A model generated the notes under the pieces. The model was not told where the DNA came from. It saw only the letters and a list, made by a program, of their open reading frames with translations, and made no database searches. Shown here piece by piece: positions 2,501 to 12,910 of a stretch of 64,000 nt of DNA. Source of the DNA: Lachnospiraceae bacterium. Lineage in GTDB: Bacteria; Bacillota; Clostridia; Lachnospirales; Lachnospiraceae. The position numbers were made by a program, and so were the translations under genes. The first letter of the stretch is position 1, and the number at the start of each line of letters is the position of its first letter. The stretch spans positions 160,930 through 224,929 of the forward strand of contig JAAVZR010000043.1 in the NCBI GenBank assembly GCA_022791755.1, written 5' to 3'.

Positions 2501-3376
2501 TCAGTCCGGCTCCCGGACCGCCAGGATCAGCCGCCGGTATCGCTTTTGATAGCAGGTGGACAGCACCAGCGTCTGCCTTTCTTCTCCGGCGGCGATCCCC
2601 ACTCCCGTATCATAGAGGCTTTGCTCCATAAACCGGTCATAGTATGCCTGTGCCCTCTCCCGGCAGGAGAAACCATATTGATACCACTCCTCCTCCACCC
2701 CATCGGTCAGAATGCAGGCCGCAATGCGGTACTGCCTCACCGAACCGTCAGGCATATGGAGATAAACATACGGGTACCTCCTGTAAAAATCCTCGTTTTT
2801 ATAGGAGTGAAGGGAAGCGAACATGCTCCCGTCCAGCTGGCTGTGGCCGTAGATCAGGATATTCCTGCTCTCGATCCCTTTCTCTGCCAGCCCGTCAATA
2901 TGGATCGCCCCCTGTCTCCCCTTCGTCCCATCTGCCCGGTGAGTCAGATAATAGCCGGAATCACCGGCCCGAAACAGGACCGGATAGCTGACTGCCGTGC
3001 CGGGAATTTCGATCCATGCCGCCACATCGGAATTCATTTCCCACAGGATCTCGAAATCCACCGCTGCAATCCGGCTGTCACCGGATCTGTCCTCTGCCTC
3101 TGTCTTCTCCTCATCCGGCCTGCGGATCCCGGAGAGATCCTGAAGCGTCCTCTCATCCCTGTGACCGTCTTCCTCATATACGACCTGCGGGGCCTGCGTC
3201 TCCTTCGTTTTACGGCTCTCCTCCTCTTGTCCCTGTCCGTCCAGATATGCCGCCCACTCATTCGCCAGAAGAGCTGCTCCCGCCGCCATCAGCAGAGGGC
3301 CGAGGACGGCCGCCACCGCGGCCGCCCTCCTTGCTTTTCTCATGGGGAATGCCTCTGTCCTGTTTTGCTCATTCAT
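2501..3376 (-). CDS. Class B sortase
   Basis: NSDVAAWIEIPGTAVSYPVL, ILIYGHSQLDGSMFASLHSYKNEDFYRRYPYVYLHMPDG and TLVLSTCYQKRYRRLILAVRE; N-terminal TM. Start MNEQNRTEAF overlaps the end of the upstream surface protein gene. Confidence 0.9.
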   Translation of the reverse strand: MNEQNRTEAFPMRKARRAAAVAAVLGPLLMAAGAALLANEWAAYLDGQGQEEESRKTKETQAPQVVYEEDGHRDERTLQDLSGIRRPDEEKTEAEDRSGDSRIAAVDFEILWEMNSDVAAWIEIPGTAVSYPVLFRAGDSGYYLTHRADGTKGRQGAIHIDGLAEKGIESRNILIYGHSQLDGSMFASLHSYKNEDFYRRYPYVYLHMPDGSVRQYRIAACILTDGVEEEWYQYGFSCRERAQAYYDRFMEQSLYDTGVGIAAGEERQTLVLSTCYQKRYRRLILAVREPD

Positions 3377-6300
3377 CCCCGGCCTCTTTTTCTTTTGCTC
3401 CATCTCTGCGGAGGCTTTTGTCCTTTTTCCGGCCCGCCATTCCCAGGAACACCGCACCCAGACAGGCCATTCCCATGGCAGGGTATACCATACCGGCGTC
3501 GCCGGTATCGATATCGCCGTCTCCGTATCCGTCCTCTTCCGGTTCCCATATTCTTGACGGCAGGTCAGGAACCGGTGTGTCTTCCATGATAATCTCCTGG
3601 GTCTGCCAGTCGTCTGTCACCACAAACCGAAGAGGCTGTGCCGTCTGATATCCGGCCGGAGCCTCAAGCTCTGTCAGCAGATACCAGCCGGGAAGCAGTC
3701 CTTCCCATATCTTCTCCTCCTTCCCGGTCGTAAACTGCTCCACTACCACCGGTCCGCCGTCCTCTGGCAGATAGGCAAGCTCCAGAACGGCCCCGGCCAG
3801 CAAAGCGCCGGTTCCGGCGGCCACCTTCTTCACCGACAGACGGATCCTGTCGTTTTTCATCTCCACCTCCTGTAGCTCCTCCGTGTCCTCCACCGTAAAG
3901 GGGACACTCTCCGCCACCGAATAGACAGAGCCCTCCGGCGCCCGTTCCTCGATCAGGATATACTGTCCCACCGGCAGCTTTTCTATATAGTGGGGTTCCC
4001 TTCCGGTGATCCAGGACTCCATCACCGTGCCTTCTTCATTCCGGATTGTCAATACGGCGCCCTCCACCGGCTCTCCGGTGGCAATATCTGTCTTCGTGAT
4101 CACAAGCTTCGTGCGGCCGTCATACATGATGGCCCCAGGTGTCTCCGAGGGAACCCACTCCGTGACCGTGCCGCTTCCCTTTTGTGTCTTCTCCGTCTGT
4201 GTTCTCTCCGTCAGCATCGTGATATCCGGCAGCAGTCCTCCCGCCTCATCTGTCTTCTGCGCCAGCCGAAACCTTAGATCCGGCGCCGTCACATATCCCG
4301 CGGGCGGCGACAGCTCCGAAAGCGTATAGACCGTATCCAGTCTCAGAAAACGTATCTCATGGGCAGAGCCGTCCGAGACCCATTCTTCCACCACATTTCC
4401 CGCCTCGTCCGTCACCTGAAGTCTGGCTCCGGAAAGGCCTGCATGATCCGCACTGTCTCTCTTTTCCACATGGACCGAAAAAGGTTCGTCGTAGAAATCA
4501 AACGCAAATTCCAACACCGCCGGCGAATCTGGTCCCCGGTAGGACGCATCCAGCATGATCTCCTCCTCCGAGAGCAAATATCCGTCAGGAGCCTCCAGCT
4601 CACGCAGATAGTATATGCCGCAGGGCAGATCGCCGGCGAAGCGGGCCGTACCGTCCATTTTGCTGGGAATCCGTTCCAAGAGCGTATCCGCCGCTACCAG
4701 CGCATCAGGATTTTCCGACAGAATCCCGGTCAGCGGATCCACAATAAAACCATAGATCGCCTCTTTGTTATACAGGCCAAAGACAGCCCCGGGAATCACC
4801 CGTTCCCTGGCCGGCTCCTCTTTGCCGTCACCGAAGGAGGGCTCACCGGCTCCGGTCTCCCGCGCCTTCTTTGTCACCACCAGCGAAACTCTCTGACGTT
4901 CATTTACATAACGCTCCCCTTCATGTACCACCACCGGCACCTGCTGCCCCTGATAGGCCAGGACAATCTCCGCAATCCTTTGATTTCTTACAAATTCTCC
5001 GTCTCCGGCTCCTGTTTCCGTGACGTAGTAGCTGCCCAGAGGCAGTCCTTCCAGCCTGGCATAGCCGTCCGCCCCTGTCTCGATCACCGCCACCAGCCGG
5101 TCCTTATAAAGCTCCACCGGTTCACCGCCGTCTGCATACACGGCGATCTGCCCTGTCTGATCCGGTGAGTAGATATCCTCCCGGACCCGGATCTCAAACC
5201 GGGCCTTTGCCACCCGCCCCATGACATAGTCAAAGACGGTCTCAAAGAATCCTCTGACAGCGTCCCGGACCCGTACTGTCGTACCGGTCAGCACCTCTCC
5301 TTCCTTGGTGATGATCAGATTCCCGCAGACTCTCTGGTCCTTCATCTCATGTCCGGCAATGATATTGCTGTTTTCCACGGTAAAACGGATCTCCTCCGTG
5401 GCCAGATTCTCCTCCCGGCAGGCCTCCCGCACTTCCTGCGCCGACCACCGGTAGCCCACATATCCTTCGGGAGCGGCTGTCTCCCGAAAAATATACTGCC
5501 GCCCTTCCTTCAGGCCCTCGATCAGATGCCCCTGCCGGACGATCAGTGTCTTTCCTTCCGGCAGCTCCTCCGGCGACGACAGCTCCACATAGAACGGTCT
5601 CTCTGCTTCTGCCTCCTGCTCATAAAAATAGTGCACCTCCTCTTTGTCCGAGATCCAGCTCTCCACCAAAACAGTCTCATACTCCCCTGCCGGATTTCGC
5701 AGCGGAACCCCGTTTTCATCCACACAGATCTCCCGCACTTCCAAAAGCGCGCCGTCCAGCAGAACTCCGCTGCTAAAGTCTGTCTTGGTAAAGATATGCT
5801 TCGTCTTCTGATTGACAAAGACAGCGTCCTCACCCTCTGTCGTTCTACCGGCTTTGGCTGCCTCGCGAATTACAGCATCTTTATTTGCCGGGTCCGTATT
5901 TATTCTCTCATTCCTCTGCAAGGTATAGCCTTCCGGAGCCTCCAGCTCTGCGATATCATATCGTCCCAGAGGAAGATCCACATCAAAGCGGGCCACCCCG
6001 TCCTCCCCCGTCACGGCTGTGGCGATCAGGGTATCCGCGCCTAACAGCTGCCGGCCTGCCGGATCCGGCAGCCAGGAATCCGACACAGGATCATAACGGA
6101 TACAGGATACCACCGGATCCCTGTTGTACAGACCGAAGACCGCTCCCGCCACGGGAAGGCCGCTGTCCGCGTCCCTCTTCACCGACGACAGCTCCAGGCG
6201 CTTCCGCTCATTCTCATAAAAGCTCTCATGCACCTGAAAGCTCTGAGACGGCTCCATCGCCGTGATCGCGAACTCCTCCTCATAGGGATTGAGCACAAAG

Positions 6301-9300
6301 CCCTCCCCGGCTTCCACCTCCCGGATATAATATCTTCCGATAGAGAGGCCGCTCAGATACCCGTAGCCGGTCTCATCCGTGGTAATCCGCCCGGCCAGCT
6401 GGTCTTTTTTCAGCACCAGGTAATGGTCCGTTCCGCCGGCGTACCGTTCCTCCTGCCCTGGCTCAATCTGGCAGGTATAGATATCCTCTGCCGCATAGAC
6501 CTCGAACACGGCATCCTTCACCGGAGCCAGCTTATAAATAAATACCTGATCCGCCACCGTGTACTCTTCTGTCCGCATAATGGGGCGAAAGCTTCCTTCT
6601 CCCAGCCGGTCTTTGAGGCTCTTCCCCGACGCTGTCGTATCCGCCAGCTGTTCTCCTTCTTTGCGGATCTCCACGATCCCTTTCTGCTCTTTATTTTCCT
6701 GCTCGATTGTGATAATAAGTCTGCCGTACTCATCCCTGTTGGCCTCCCCCGCCTGTCCGTCAGGATAGACCGTATCGTTAGAGATCTCGAAGATGAGCTT
6801 TTCTGACGGGGCGTCTGTGATCTCATAGCTGTTTATGCCCCCGGAGGAGGTATCGTTTAAGATCTGTTCTCTGCCGTTTAGCACAAAGCCCTCCGGCGCT
6901 TTGATCTCGGTGAGCTCATAGCGCCCCACAGGCAGCAGCTGATCCAACTCCACATAGGCGTCCGCGATTTTACCGTCTCTGTAAACACAGCTTATCGCAA
7001 AGGGATTCTCCTTCGTCCCCTGCTCTGCCCGCAGGGAAGAATTGTAGTACCAGATAAAACCGTCCTCGTCCACCTGCCAGATCCGGCTGTCAAAGTCCTC
7101 CCGGCTTCCAAACAGGCGAATCCGGTAGGAGGCTCCCGGTTTCAGCACCGTATCCCAGCCTTCCTCCACACGGTCGCAGTCCGTTTTTCTGATCCGGATA
7201 TAGGTCTCCGTGGTCTCATTCCCGATATAGCGAAGAGGCTGTGCTGTGGCCGAGTCCCGGCTGACGGTCACCAGCACCGGCGCCGCCCTGCGCTTTCCCT
7301 CCGGCACCGTAGTCTCAACCAGAATATACTGGCCCGTGGGAAGCTGCGGCGTGCAAAAATACCCGTTCTCATCGCTCCACATTTCTGTCACACGGTATTC
7401 GTCCGGGCGTTCCCCCGTGGCTGCGAGCCACCTCTCGTCGCCGTCGCTCCAGGGCTCCGACTGTCTCTTATAGACGAGCGCCGTCTTCTCCTGTGTGAAA
7501 TCATAGGAAGAAAATTTTTCCATATCTGCCGCCGTCCACACTGTGCCCTCCGGCGCGATCTCTCCTTTTGCCACCACGGCCAGGCTTCCCAGCCGGTAAA
7601 TGGAAAATCCCGCCCTCAGGGGCTTTTGCTCCGTGTCGGTATTTTTATTCTCCAGCTTTACAAACTGCGCCGCCTGCTTCCAGACAAAATCCCCGCTGAA
7701 AATATCGTGAGACCCGTTTGCGTCGTCAATGGTCAGGCTGTTGGTATCCCCTTTCGCCTGCTCCTGTCTGAGCATCACCGCCTCGTTCTCTTTGCCGTAG
7801 CGAAACGTGACATAGTACCGTGTCTTTTCCTGCCCACGGTACTGCGTCGTGTCAGGCAGATAACCGTCCGCAGGCGTAATCTCTTCCACATAGTAGCTGC
7901 CGGCCTCCACCTGCTTAAAGGCCGTCGTCCCCGGCGTCGTCTCCCAGGCCGGTTCCCGACCGGATTCCACACAGCGCTCTCCCTCTTCATCCAGCAGGTA
8001 TCCCTGCCCGTCAGACACCGGCGTCCTGCCCACCGTAGCAGAGGCCGCCAATGCGCCTCGTTCATAGAGAAGTCCTGTGACTCCGTCGGGGTGATACACC
8101 GGCGAAGCCGCATAGAGACCGTAGACGGCTCCGTCCAACGTCACTTTGTCTCCCTGTGTTACCCGGCCGCCCTCCTCATGGTCCGCCTGGGCCTCGCTGT
8201 CATATTTATGCAGGACCACCTGACCAAAGATATGCTCATTCCAGAAGGTCTCCCCTGCGCCGTCGTTGGTCACCGTCAGGATCCGGCCATGGTTGCTGAG
8301 GTCTCCCTCTACGGTAAATGCGTAACGCACCTTGTTTTCTGCCGATCCGGCTGTCTTTTCCCCTTCATCGTTATCCCAGTCGCCGTAATATCCCTCAGGG
8401 GCCTCCAGCTCCACCAGATAAAATCTTCCGTAATTGGCATGATCCAGCGTATCCGCGTAGTAGATCTCTCCGGAGAGATAGCTTCCGTCCGCCTGCTTTT
8501 CAAAGAGCACGGTCCCGGTCAGGCTTCCTGTTGCCGCGTATACGCCGAAACGGGCGTCCTCCGAAATCGGATTTTCCGTATAGCGGTCCGTCTTCGGAAT
8601 CCGGATCCTCACATGGGCCGGCTGATTGGCAAAAAGATCGTTATCTCCTGCGGCGTATTCCTGAGGCGACGCGTTTCCGATGGAAAACACCTGATCCTCC
8701 GCCGTGATCCGGAAATAGCTGGGCTTCGTATCCCGGATATAGCCCGCAGGCGCCGCTGTCTCCTGAATATAGAAACGGCCTTCGTTCTTCTGCGTATAGT
8801 AGACATACCCCTGTTTCGCGCCGGGAAGGGAGGAGGCCACGGTGTAGGTCCCGTCTGTCAGCCGGATCACACTGTAGTCCCGGCTCAGAACGTAATCGCT
8901 GCCGTCCCACTCCCACAGGGCAAAAGCCGCATCCTCCCTCAGGCGGGACCCTGTCTGGCCGTCCACCTTATCTAAGGTCACCCTTGCCTTCCATGGACTG
9001 TTTTTTACAGAGACCGTAAGACTGTCCTCTCCGGAGAGAGTCCCGGACTGTTCCGATTCCCCGGTGAGCTGAAACCCCGGCGGCGCCGTGCTCTCCTTCA
9101 CCGTAACGCTCCTCTCAGCCCCGGCCGCCGCGTCTGCCTGAGCCTGAGCCTGGGAAGACGCCTCCTGCTGAGCCGCCTTATAGGCTTCGTCACGACTTCG
9201 GTATGTGTCCACCGAAGCCTTCGTCTCTTCATCCAGGTCATCGTAATTGCTGCAATAGCGCTTTGTCACGGTGGCGCTTCCCGTGCCGCTCACCTCCCAG

Positions 9301-10685
9301 GACAGGCTTCCCTTTCCCTCCCTGTCCGTGATGATACTTCCCTTTTTATCTCCGTCCTCATAAACCTCAAAGACAACACCTTTCAGATTTTCTCCGGTGA
9401 CTTGTGCATACTTTCTGTCGATCTTCACCTGATGGCTTCGGCTGGCCTGACGATTCTCCGTCGCCGACACCTCATCATACTGCGGCTCCACCGGCTCCGG
9501 TTCCGGATCCGGCCCTGGTCCCGGTTCTTCCGTGTAGACCCCTTCATACAGAGTCGCAAAGCGCTGATGGCCCGACGGGCCCCTGAAAACATATACCGTA
9601 TCCAGCCCAGCGGCGGATGCCGAGGTGATCGCCCGGTATGAGCTGCCAAGTCTCAGGGCATAGGGGCGGTCCATGGCCAGAAGCGCCCCGTTTTTCTCCA
9701 GGTCATCCATGGAAGAAAGCTTCTCCGGCGTGTAGGCCGCCATATCATGCTTGGAAAGGGCATAGTCAAATATCGTCGTCACATAGGATGCTCCACTGCC
9801 CCCGCACCAGATGTACATCTGCGCAAACTCATAATTCTCTCTGGTGGGATTGGCCATGTAGAAGGCAATCGCCTGACGGACCACGCCGTCGTCCGTCGTG
9901 CCGGTCCTGGTATAGGTCTTCCCCGATGTGGCACGCAGATGGACATCCAGGCAAAACACATCATTGCCGTCCAAAAGCAGCTTCCACACATCCATACCGT
10001 TTCGGTTGAGAACAGGCAGATTCACCGTGTTCCCCAGCGTATACAGCCCGCTGGTGGCCCGGTAGGTCCCGCTTCCTGCCCTTACGGCAAACCGTGTCAG
10101 GCCGTCATTCTCTGTCACGGCGTCCGGTTTTGCTGTCGCAGGTCCATAAGCGCCGCCTACTTCTCTCCGATACCGTTCCGGCTCCCAGACCGAAACGCTT
10201 TTCTTCACATAGTCCTCCAGCTGCCTGAACTCTTCCTCACTGAGCCGTGCATTCAGTGCCGGCGCGAAGATCACCCAGTAAAAATCCCGATCCTCCAAAG
10301 CCATGGCGTCAAAGATCTCCCGGCAAAACGCCAGCTCGCCTCCTTCGCCGGCGGGAGGCTGAGGATCGGGAGCCAACGTTTTCTCCGGCGCCGCCTGTTC
10401 CTCGTCCGGGACCGGTTCCGTCTCCGGCGCTGCCTGCCCCTCTTCCGGGACCGGTTCTGTCTCCGGTATTGCCTGCTCCTCGTCCGGGACCGGTTCCGTC
10501 TCCGGCGCTGCCTGCCCTTCATCCGGGAGCGGTTTTGTCTCCGGCGTCGCCTGCCCTTCCTGCCGGACAGGCTCTTCCTCCCCGGCCAGCACGGTCACCG
10601 GCGTATAAATACCGGTAAACAGTATGCTCAGGATCAAACCGGCGCTCAACCAGCTTCTCCAATATCTTTTGATTGCGTATTTCGT
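3369..10685 (-). CDS. Giant multi-CnaB/SpaA-domain surface protein with thioester-domain-like N-terminus and C-terminal sorting signal; start codon uncertain (ACG at 10685 or TTG at 10649)
   Basis: About 14 E-box-like motifs (YxLxExxAPxGY type); N-terminal FCLD and AQMYIW motifs; C-terminal DTGD + hydrophobic stretch + RKKDK tail; cotranscribed with a sortase. Confidence 0.9.
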   Translation of the reverse strand, partial: TKYAIKRYWRSWLSAGLILSILFTGIYTPVTVLAGEEEPVRQEGQATPETKPLPDEGQAAPETEPVPDEEQAIPETEPVPEEGQAAPETEPVPDEEQAAPEKTLAPDPQPPAGEGGELAFCREIFDAMALEDRDFYWVIFAPALNARLSEEEFRQLEDYVKKSVSVWEPERYRREVGGAYGPATAKPDAVTENDGLTRFAVRAGSGTYRATSGLYTLGNTVNLPVLNRNGMDVWKLLLDGNDVFCLDVHLRATSGKTYTRTGTTDDGVVRQAIAFYMANPTRENYEFAQMYIWCGGSGASYVTTIFDYALSKHDMAAYTPEKLSSMDDLEKNGALLAMDRPYALRLGSSYRAITSASAAGLDTVYVFRGPSGHQRFATLYEGVYTEEPGPGPDPEPEPVEPQYDEVSATENRQASRSHQVKIDRKYAQVTGENLKGVVFEVYEDGDKKGSIITDREGKGSLSWEVSGTGSATVTKRYCSNYDDLDEETKASVDTYRSRDEAYKAAQQEASSQAQAQADAAAGAERSVTVKESTAPPGFQLTGESEQSGTLSGEDSLTVSVKNSPWKARVTLDKVDGQTGSRLREDAAFALWEWDGSDYVLSRDYSVIRLTDGTYTVASSLPGAKQGYVYYTQKNEGRFYIQETAAPAGYIRDTKPSYFRITAEDQVFSIGNASPQEYAAGDNDLFANQPAHVRIRIPKTDRYTENPISEDARFGVYAATGSLTGTVLFEKQADGSYLSGEIYYADTLDHANYGRFYLVELEAPEGYYGDWDNDEGEKTAGSAENKVRYAFTVEGDLSNHGRILTVTNDGAGETFWNEHIFGQVVLHKYDSEAQADHEEGGRVTQGDKVTLDGAVYGLYAASPVYHPDGVTGLLYERGALAASATVGRTPVSDGQGYLLDEEGERCVESGREPAWETTPGTTAFKQVEAGSYYVEEITPADGYLPDTTQYRGQEKTRYYVTFRYGKENEAVMLRQEQAKGDTNSLTIDDANGSHDIFSGDFVWKQAAQFVKLENKNTDTEQKPLRAGFSIYRLGSLAVVAKGEIAPEGTVWTAADMEKFSSYDFTQEKTALVYKRQSEPWSDGDERWLAATGERPDEYRVTEMWSDENGYFCTPQLPTGQYILVETTVPEGKRRAAPVLVTVSRDSATAQPLRYIGNETTETYIRIRKTDCDRVEEGWDTVLKPGASYRIRLFGSREDFDSRIWQVDEDGFIWYYNSSLRAEQGTKENPFAISCVYRDGKIADAYVELDQLLPVGRYELTEIKAPEGFVLNGREQILNDTSSGGINSYEITDAPSEKLIFEISNDTVYPDGQAGEANRDEYGRLIITIEQENKEQKGIVEIRKEGEQLADTTASGKSLKDRLGEGSFRPIMRTEEYTVADQVFIYKLAPVKDAVFEVYAAEDIYTCQIEPGQEERYAGGTDHYLVLKKDQLAGRITTDETGYGYLSGLSIGRYYIREVEAGEGFVLNPYEEEFAITAMEPSQSFQVHESFYENERKRLELSSVKRDADSGLPVAGAVFGLYNRDPVVSCIRYDPVSDSWLPDPAGRQLLGADTLIATAVTGEDGVARFDVDLPLGRYDIAELEAPEGYTLQRNERINTDPANKDAVIREAAKAGRTTEGEDAVFVNQKTKHIFTKTDFSSGVLLDGALLEVREICVDENGVPLRNPAGEYETVLVESWISDKEEVHYFYEQEAEAERPFYVELSSPEELPEGKTLIVRQGHLIEGLKEGRQYIFRETAAPEGYVGYRWSAQEVREACREENLATEEIRFTVENSNIIAGHEMKDQRVCGNLIITKEGEVLTGTTVRVRDAVRGFFETVFDYVMGRVAKARFEIRVREDIYSPDQTGQIAVYADGGEPVELYKDRLVAVIETGADGYARLEGLPLGSYYVTETGAGDGEFVRNQRIAEIVLAYQGQQVPVVVHEGERYVNERQRVSLVVTKKARETGAGEPSFGDGKEEPARERVIPGAVFGLYNKEAIYGFIVDPLTGILSENPDALVAADTLLERIPSKMDGTARFAGDLPCGIYYLRELEAPDGYLLSEEEIMLDASYRGPDSPAVLEFAFDFYDEPFSVHVEKRDSADHAGLSGARLQVTDEAGNVVEEWVSDGSAHEIRFLRLDTVYTLSELSPPAGYVTAPDLRFRLAQKTDEAGGLLPDITMLTERTQTEKTQKGSGTVTEWVPSETPGAIMYDGRTKLVITKTDIATGEPVEGAVLTIRNEEGTVMESWITGREPHYIEKLPVGQYILIEERAPEGSVYSVAESVPFTVEDTEELQEVEMKNDRIRLSVKKVAAGTGALLAGAVLELAYLPEDGGPVVVEQFTTGKEEKIWEGLLPGWYLLTELEAPAGYQTAQPLRFVVTDDWQTQEIIMEDTPVPDLPSRIWEPEEDGYGDGDIDTGDAGMVYPAMGMACLGAVFLGMAGRKKDKSLRRDGAKEKEAGDE
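10382..10606 (-). repeat. PET-rich tandem repeat (xAxPETxPxPDEEQ) in the surface protein N-terminus
   Basis: Protein EGQATPETKPLPDEGQAAPETEPVPDEEQAIPETEPVPEEGQAAPETEPVPDEEQAAPEK, with matching near-identical DNA units. Boundaries approximate. Confidence 0.85.
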
Positions 10686-10859
10686 TTTTGTACCTCCTTG
10701 ATAATAAAATAAAACTCATGGGATTTCCGGTCAGATTATGCACGGAAAAGAACAAAACAGATGTTGCCGCAGAGCTTGATTACGGATACCGGCACAGGCC
10801 GGAAGAATCAGACGGGTCTCTTGCGGTAATAGTACCACATGTTTTACTAAAACGCAACA

Positions 10860-10901
10860 GGCTGAAAGTGAGGGTTATCTGTAAAACCCTCGCTTTCAGC
10901 C
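10860..10901. repeat. Long near-perfect hairpin GGCTGAAAGTGAGGGTT-atctgtaa-AACCCTCGCTTTCAGCC
   Basis: 17-bp arms with one T/G position; in the intergenic region upstream of the surface protein gene. Confidence 0.85.
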
Positions 10902-11028
10902 CGTATTTACAAAATATTTAACTCTCTTTTCGAAAAAGTGTTCCTGATGTATAAATTTTGAAATATGAAGTATATTTCTACACAGATTACATAATCTTCG
11001 ACAATTTAACAGTTCTATAAACTGGAAA

Positions 11029-11250
11029 TTACTTATCTTCCTTCAAGGCTTTGGCTGCGACAACTATTCCTATAACGGCGAGAACATAGAAAAAAAGAAT
11101 AATATAACATTCAATGCCACCAAAATCAAATACATTTAAAACTGTTGACCACGCTCCTTCCTGAATGATAAATGCGCTTGCGATCAGCCAACCAGTTCCG
11201 CCAATAATTCCACATAGCATTAAGGTACAACCAAAAATCAGCTTTTTCAT
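11029..11250 (-). CDS. Small membrane protein, two predicted TM segments
   Basis: MKKLIFGCTLMLCGIIGGTGWLIASAFI...; good RBS (AAAGGAGTG) ahead of the ATG at 11250. Confidence 0.7.
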   Translation of the reverse strand: MKKLIFGCTLMLCGIIGGTGWLIASAFIIQEGAWSTVLNVFDFGGIECYIILFFYVLAVIGIVVAAKALKEDK

Positions 11251-11387
11251 GCAGTCACACTCCTTTATGAAATTCCAGTTTATATATTTAATTATAAAAT
11301 CTTTATCTTCCATTTACAATGTATATTAATAAGTCATTTTCCAATGGGTACACAATTCCGAAAAGGGAGATATTTAAAAAAGATATG

Positions 11388-12265: not shown

Positions 12266-12910
12266 TTACAGCTTTTCCAAAGCTCTCCGATAGATCTCGT
12301 CTGCCAGCGCCTCTCCCGTTACCAGCTTCGCCTCCATCCGGTCAAGAATCTCCTTCGCCCTCTCTCTGTCTTCCATGGAACGGGCGTTGATCCGCAGATT
12401 CAAAGCCGCCGCCATCAGAGCGCCCTTACCTAAAAGAGCCGCCGCCGCCGCATCGCTGACTGCCATGACCGAGCCCTTTTTTTCATAGATATCAACCAGG
12501 TCCAGCGTCTCCATGCAGCAGTCCATAATCTGCTCCGGTACGATACAGGCATCAAAAAGGGCTCTCTGAAGCCGTCTGTTCTTCTCTGCCTTCTCCTCAT
12601 CGGTTCCCGACGGCAGACGGTATACCGCCGCCAGCGGAGCAAAGCTATCGCCGTCCTCCTGGATCAGCTCCAGAAAGCGAAGACGCAGGCGGCCGGCTCT
12701 TTCATTGGCCTCTGTGATCTCCTCCTCATACGCCGCATATTTTTTCTTTCCCACCGTCAGGTTGCCCACCATGTTTCCCAGCGATACGGCCAGCGCCCCT
12801 GCGAGAGCGCTGGCGCCGCCGCCCCCCGGCGCCGGCTCCTTCGATGCCAGGACACGGCAGAATTCCTCACACGATATCTTTGCAAAAGCAGTCTGATCCA
12901 TTATTCCCAT
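12266..12910 (-). CDS. fchA: Methenyltetrahydrofolate cyclohydrolase (cyclodeaminase family)
   Basis: EFCRVLASKEPAPGGGGASALAGALAVSLGNMVGNLTVGKKKYA; position between folD and fhs. Confidence 0.92.
   Translation of the reverse strand: MGIMDQTAFAKISCEEFCRVLASKEPAPGGGGASALAGALAVSLGNMVGNLTVGKKKYAAYEEEITEANERAGRLRLRFLELIQEDGDSFAPLAAVYRLPSGTDEEKAEKNRRLQRALFDACIVPEQIMDCCMETLDLVDIYEKKGSVMAVSDAAAAALLGKGALMAAALNLRINARSMEDRERAKEILDRMEAKLVTGEALADEIYRRALEKL

Follow-up and report, generated by a model that had tools for sequence, protein, structure and literature searches.

The window analyzed here is a 64,000-nucleotide (nt) stretch of contig JAAVZR010000043.1 from a Lachnospiraceae bacterium whose draft genome comprises 3.19 Mb in 55 contigs and is an estimated 88% complete. 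On its minus strand, positions 3369 to 10685 form a 2438-codon frame encoding a wall-anchored surface protein composed of SpaA/CnaB repeats. Ten stretches of this adhesin match the SpaA prealbumin-like domain PF17802 of Pfam above the cut-off (375.7 bits, E 8e-115), and the protein also scores over the cut-off for the SpaH/EbpB-type pilin subfamily NF033902 of NCBIfam. A class-B-like sortase gene (2501 to 3376, minus strand; PF04203, with TIGR03064 below its cut-off) adjoins the 3' side, the neighbor expected of a gene for a wall-anchored protein. The likely ATG of the sortase gene (3376 to 3374) overlaps the adhesin stop codon (TGA, 3371 to 3369) by 8 nt, suggesting that the two genes are translationally coupled.

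Folate one-carbon genes lie upstream of the adhesin gene, along with a small gene for a membrane protein and a strong hairpin. The hairpin (10857 to 10904, minus strand; 20-nt arms, 90%) separates the small gene from the adhesin gene, resembles a terminator, and probably is one, though it lacks a long T run. The small gene (MKKLIFGCTLML..., about 11250 to 11029, minus strand) is exactly bracketed by 15-nt inverted repeats, TATAAACTGGAAWTT, at 11016 to 11030 and 11270 to 11284. This 15-mer has no further copy in the 3.19-Mb genome, and the pair possibly delimits a small invertible cassette, represents regulator sites, or occurs by chance.

Just past the signal peptide, 39-bp (13-codon) tandem repeats (10343 to 10576) specify a Pro/Glu-rich stalk; the copies are 60 to 88% like the reference copy, so their number may vary between strains. 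Positions 9525 to 10073 (minus strand) encode a putative thioester-type N-terminal domain. Thioester domains are characterized by the motifs [YFL]C-Phi-zeta, TQxx-Phi-W, and Phi-Q-zeta-Phi-Phi (PMC4450167, PMC6194298), which are fitted by FCLD, AQMYIW (with A for T), and HQRFA in the adhesin, including the Cys, the Gln, and the QxxPhiW pattern. The three motifs are conserved in three homologues, with Cys and Gln unchanged across all four sequences. The assignment is putative and made by motif: the structure model of the domain (pLDDT 46) was too poor for use, and a fold search gave no meaningful match. The adhesin shares with thioester/isopeptide (TIE) surface proteins and CnaB/SpaA-repeat adhesins of Gram-positive bacteria (such as SfbI, Cpa, and BaTIE) a signal peptide, thioester-like N-terminal motifs, at least 10 SpaA/CnaB repeats, a C-terminal hydrophobic anchor, and an adjacent sortase. 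Unlike in these proteins, its N-terminal domain has no Pfam or PDB match, alanine replaces the threonine of TQxxPhiW, and no canonical LPXTG is present, the C-terminal hydrophobic stretch being preceded by DGDIDTGD.

The codon at the place where this gene would be expected to start is ACG (10683 to 10685, minus strand). It stands behind a very strong Shine-Dalgarno (SD) sequence in A/U-rich surroundings, AAGGAGG (10693 to 10699, minus strand; computed anti-SD duplex, -12.6 kcal/mol), at a spacing of 7 nt (TACAAAA, 10692 to 10686), and it is followed on the minus strand by AAA TAC GCA ATC AAA AGA TAT TGG AGA AGC TGG TTG. Upstream, the frame is shut by an in-frame TGA (10718 to 10716); from ACG it is open to the stop codon at 3371 to 3369. 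The codons between the upstream TGA and ACG are GTT TTA TTT TAT TAT CAA GGA GGT ACA AAA, with no in-frame ATG, GTG, TTG, CTG, ATT, ATA, or ATC among them. Read from ACG, the protein begins (M)KYAIKRYWRSWLSAGLILSILFTGIYTPVTVLAG (10583 to 10685, minus strand), in which a basic n-region (KYAIKRYWR), a hydrophobic core, and a cleavage-like end (VLAG) are recognizable by inspection as a signal peptide. The sequence-only reading had described the same ACG, SD spacing, signal peptide, and lack of an upstream start, and every coordinate checked out. From loci of this genome, the chance expectation for AAGGAGG lying within the 5-position spacing range of any one codon is about 0.07% of positions, which, together with the anti-SD pairing energy, indicates that the association of SD and ACG exceeds chance. 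The gene is otherwise intact, with a non-start as the first codon positioned by its SD.

A scan of the adhesin 5' leader against Rfam returned no family, its predicted fold is no better than that of shuffled sequences (z = 0.97), and a search for the leader DNA across the genus found it in this genome alone, with no conserved leader in relatives. There is no sign that the ACG is a reversible off-switch. A start codon or promoter invertible directly at the codon was considered and rejected, no convincing inverted repeats being present on either side of it.

The first conventional in-frame start codon is a TTG at 10647 to 10649 (minus strand), and its product would be MSAGLILSILFTG..., without the basic n-region. 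This loss had been noted earlier as one objection to the TTG and stands; the other objection, that the codon is too far from any ribosome-binding site, does not, for an SD-like GGAG (10660 to 10657) lies 7 nt upstream. The predicted anti-SD pairing of this GGAG is -6.8 kcal/mol, versus -12.6 kcal/mol for the AAGGAGG before ACG. Given the GGAG, weak internal initiation at the TTG is possible and would yield a signal peptide lacking its basic end.

Clear homologues of the adhesin occur in three of the six other species of the genus (G001, G003, and G005; 44 to 47% identity), on contigs of MAGs of uncultured Lachnospiraceae. When aligned, the signal peptides of all three begin with ATG where the adhesin has ACG, their N termini reading MKIGRW, MKIRRW, and MRVKQW, versus (ACG)KYAIKRYW. 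Identity to the homologues is 54 to 57% in the N-terminal domain and 40 to 43% over the N-terminal region, and the upstream neighbors differ. Two weaker homologues, both with ordinary ATG candidates, are present in G006. Searches for a copy from the same species yielded none among proteins of the genome contigs (in collections holding one genome per species) and none by exact pattern in viral contigs, and alignment matched only the three sister-species MAGs. These alignments show ATG to be the norm of the family, in species too distant to give the immediate ancestral codon. Good support for ACG occupying the position of the ancestral start comes from the SD and its spacing, from the signal peptide, and from the ATG that homologues have at the corresponding place.

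Among 370 long frames kept from a survey of 490 kb of the same genome, 157 genes have an SD-positioned legal start (132 ATG, 17 GTG, and 8 TTG), and 24 frames have AGGAGG positioned over a non-start codon. Most of these 24 have a legal start either upstream, which makes the AGGAGG internal, or close by, and a few look on inspection like spurious antisense frames. As a matter of judgment and not of statistics, the adhesin gene is the only clear gene in the 490 kb with a strong SD directed at a non-start codon and no start upstream of it. Elsewhere in the genome, genes with SpaA repeats show ordinary ATG or TTG candidates. Another giant frame with SpaA repeats (2379 codons, from position 12580 on the minus strand of locus L030, contig C51) has an apparent TTG start with AAGGAGG 8 nt upstream, and an in-frame ATG lies further upstream. 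Genome-wide, the pattern AGGAGG-N5-9-ACGAAA has 5 matches, versus 17 for a reversed control; of the four matches outside the adhesin gene, two were characterized, one reading ATG-ACG-AAA and the other having an ATG served by an SD of its own.

No altered initiator tRNA was found. The tRNA-Thr(CGU) has an ordinary elongator-like anticodon stem without the G-C stem typical of initiators, an ordinary CAU initiator tRNA is present, and no initiator tRNA with the anticodon CGU, which would read ACG, occurs among the tRNAs of 30 loci from the 88%-complete genome. An ACG start is neither conserved in the homologues nor recurrent in the sampled loci. Of the three explanations first offered for the ACG (an off-switch mutation, a genuine ACG start, or a base-call error), these comparisons favor a lineage-specific substitution or a consensus error over use of ACG as a normal start, which was encountered in none of the homologues, paralogues, and SD-led genes checked. 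No observation speaks for a phase switch or for an ACG start that is conserved.

We favor, with a probability of roughly 0.6, the interpretation that an ancestral ATG became ACG through one substitution, either in the bacterium's lineage or in the strain that dominates the assembled population, and that the gene is now nearly silent or leaky. Ribosomes would still bind the strong SD and would initiate at ACG only a small fraction as often as at ATG. When measured with a reporter in E. coli, ACG belongs to the group of codons active at 0.1 to 1.5% of ATG (PMC6925171), and N-terminomics has revealed rare non-cognate starts (PMC13245402). Residual weak initiation at the TTG, through its own GGAG, may add a product that would be poorly exported without its basic residues. 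The net outcome would be a nearly silent or leaky adhesin allele, and sortase output would probably drop as well, given the overlap between the start of the sortase gene and the stop codon of the adhesin gene.

The 2438-codon frame is otherwise undamaged, with no other lesion. Its integrity fits a recent change or a tolerated low-level allele and would be seen, too, in a functional gene or an assembly artifact. As in the start-loss alleles of bacterial genomes, a single base of the start codon appears changed and the SD, its spacing, and the frame are otherwise intact. Unlike start-loss alleles known within species, the change in the adhesin gene is deduced from other species of the genus.

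Alternatively, the C could be an error of base calling or consensus or the product of strain mixture, with the true gene being ordinary and starting with ATG. The assembly is a draft (55 contigs, 88% complete), and its sequence is likely a population consensus; moreover, the surroundings of the ACG are those of an intact gene, and no second case like it occurs in the sampled sequence. Against such an error, no other clear start codon lesion was found in the 490 kb, and single substitutions are rare in short-read consensus sequences. Simple phasing errors after a run of five A would favor A or G, and the base here is C. We consider a real allele likelier than an error, which we regard as an unlikely, though not negligible, source of the ACG.

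Somewhat more doubtful is the possibility that the protein is made at a low but useful level from ACG, from the TTG at 10649, or from both, the weak start serving as a deliberate low dose. The ACG is preceded by a very strong SD with A/U-rich surroundings, a GGAG lies 7 nt before the TTG, and the frame is intact across its 2438 codons; reporter assays in E. coli measure some initiation at ACG (PMC6925171), and N-terminomics has picked up non-cognate starts (PMC13245402). Against this possibility, ACG is the start codon of none of the homologues and paralogues examined, and a product from the TTG would lack the positive charges of the n-region and depend on far weaker SD pairing (-6.8 versus -12.6 kcal/mol).

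Programmed recoding is very improbable. A short frame from an ATG at 10719 to 10717, one frame off, overlaps the SD and the run of five A and could in principle shift into the adhesin frame. This candidate was rejected: the ATG has no visible SD, and a +1 shift would have to occur at only five A. The ACG might otherwise be edited to AUG in the mRNA, a C-to-U change known in chloroplasts, but editing that creates a start codon has reportedly not been seen in bacteria (PMC9845219), and relatives have no conserved leader. The adhesin gene does resemble plastid rpl2, psbL, and ndhD, whose transcripts are edited to AUG, in having a genomic ACG at its start site; it differs from them in that nothing at the locus is indicative of editing. 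It is just as improbable that ACG truly starts an abundant giant surface protein by a dedicated mechanism, whether C-to-U editing or an unusually permissive context. Normal production from ACG would be a striking exception to the rules of bacterial start codons, and nothing here points to one.

For a start-loss allele, the favored reading, open reading frame callers mask the loss by selecting the downstream TTG, a choice that strips the signal peptide of its basic end. If the allele is real, the adhesin would be one more costly surface protein lost through a point change in its start codon, in this case in a gut-type commensal.
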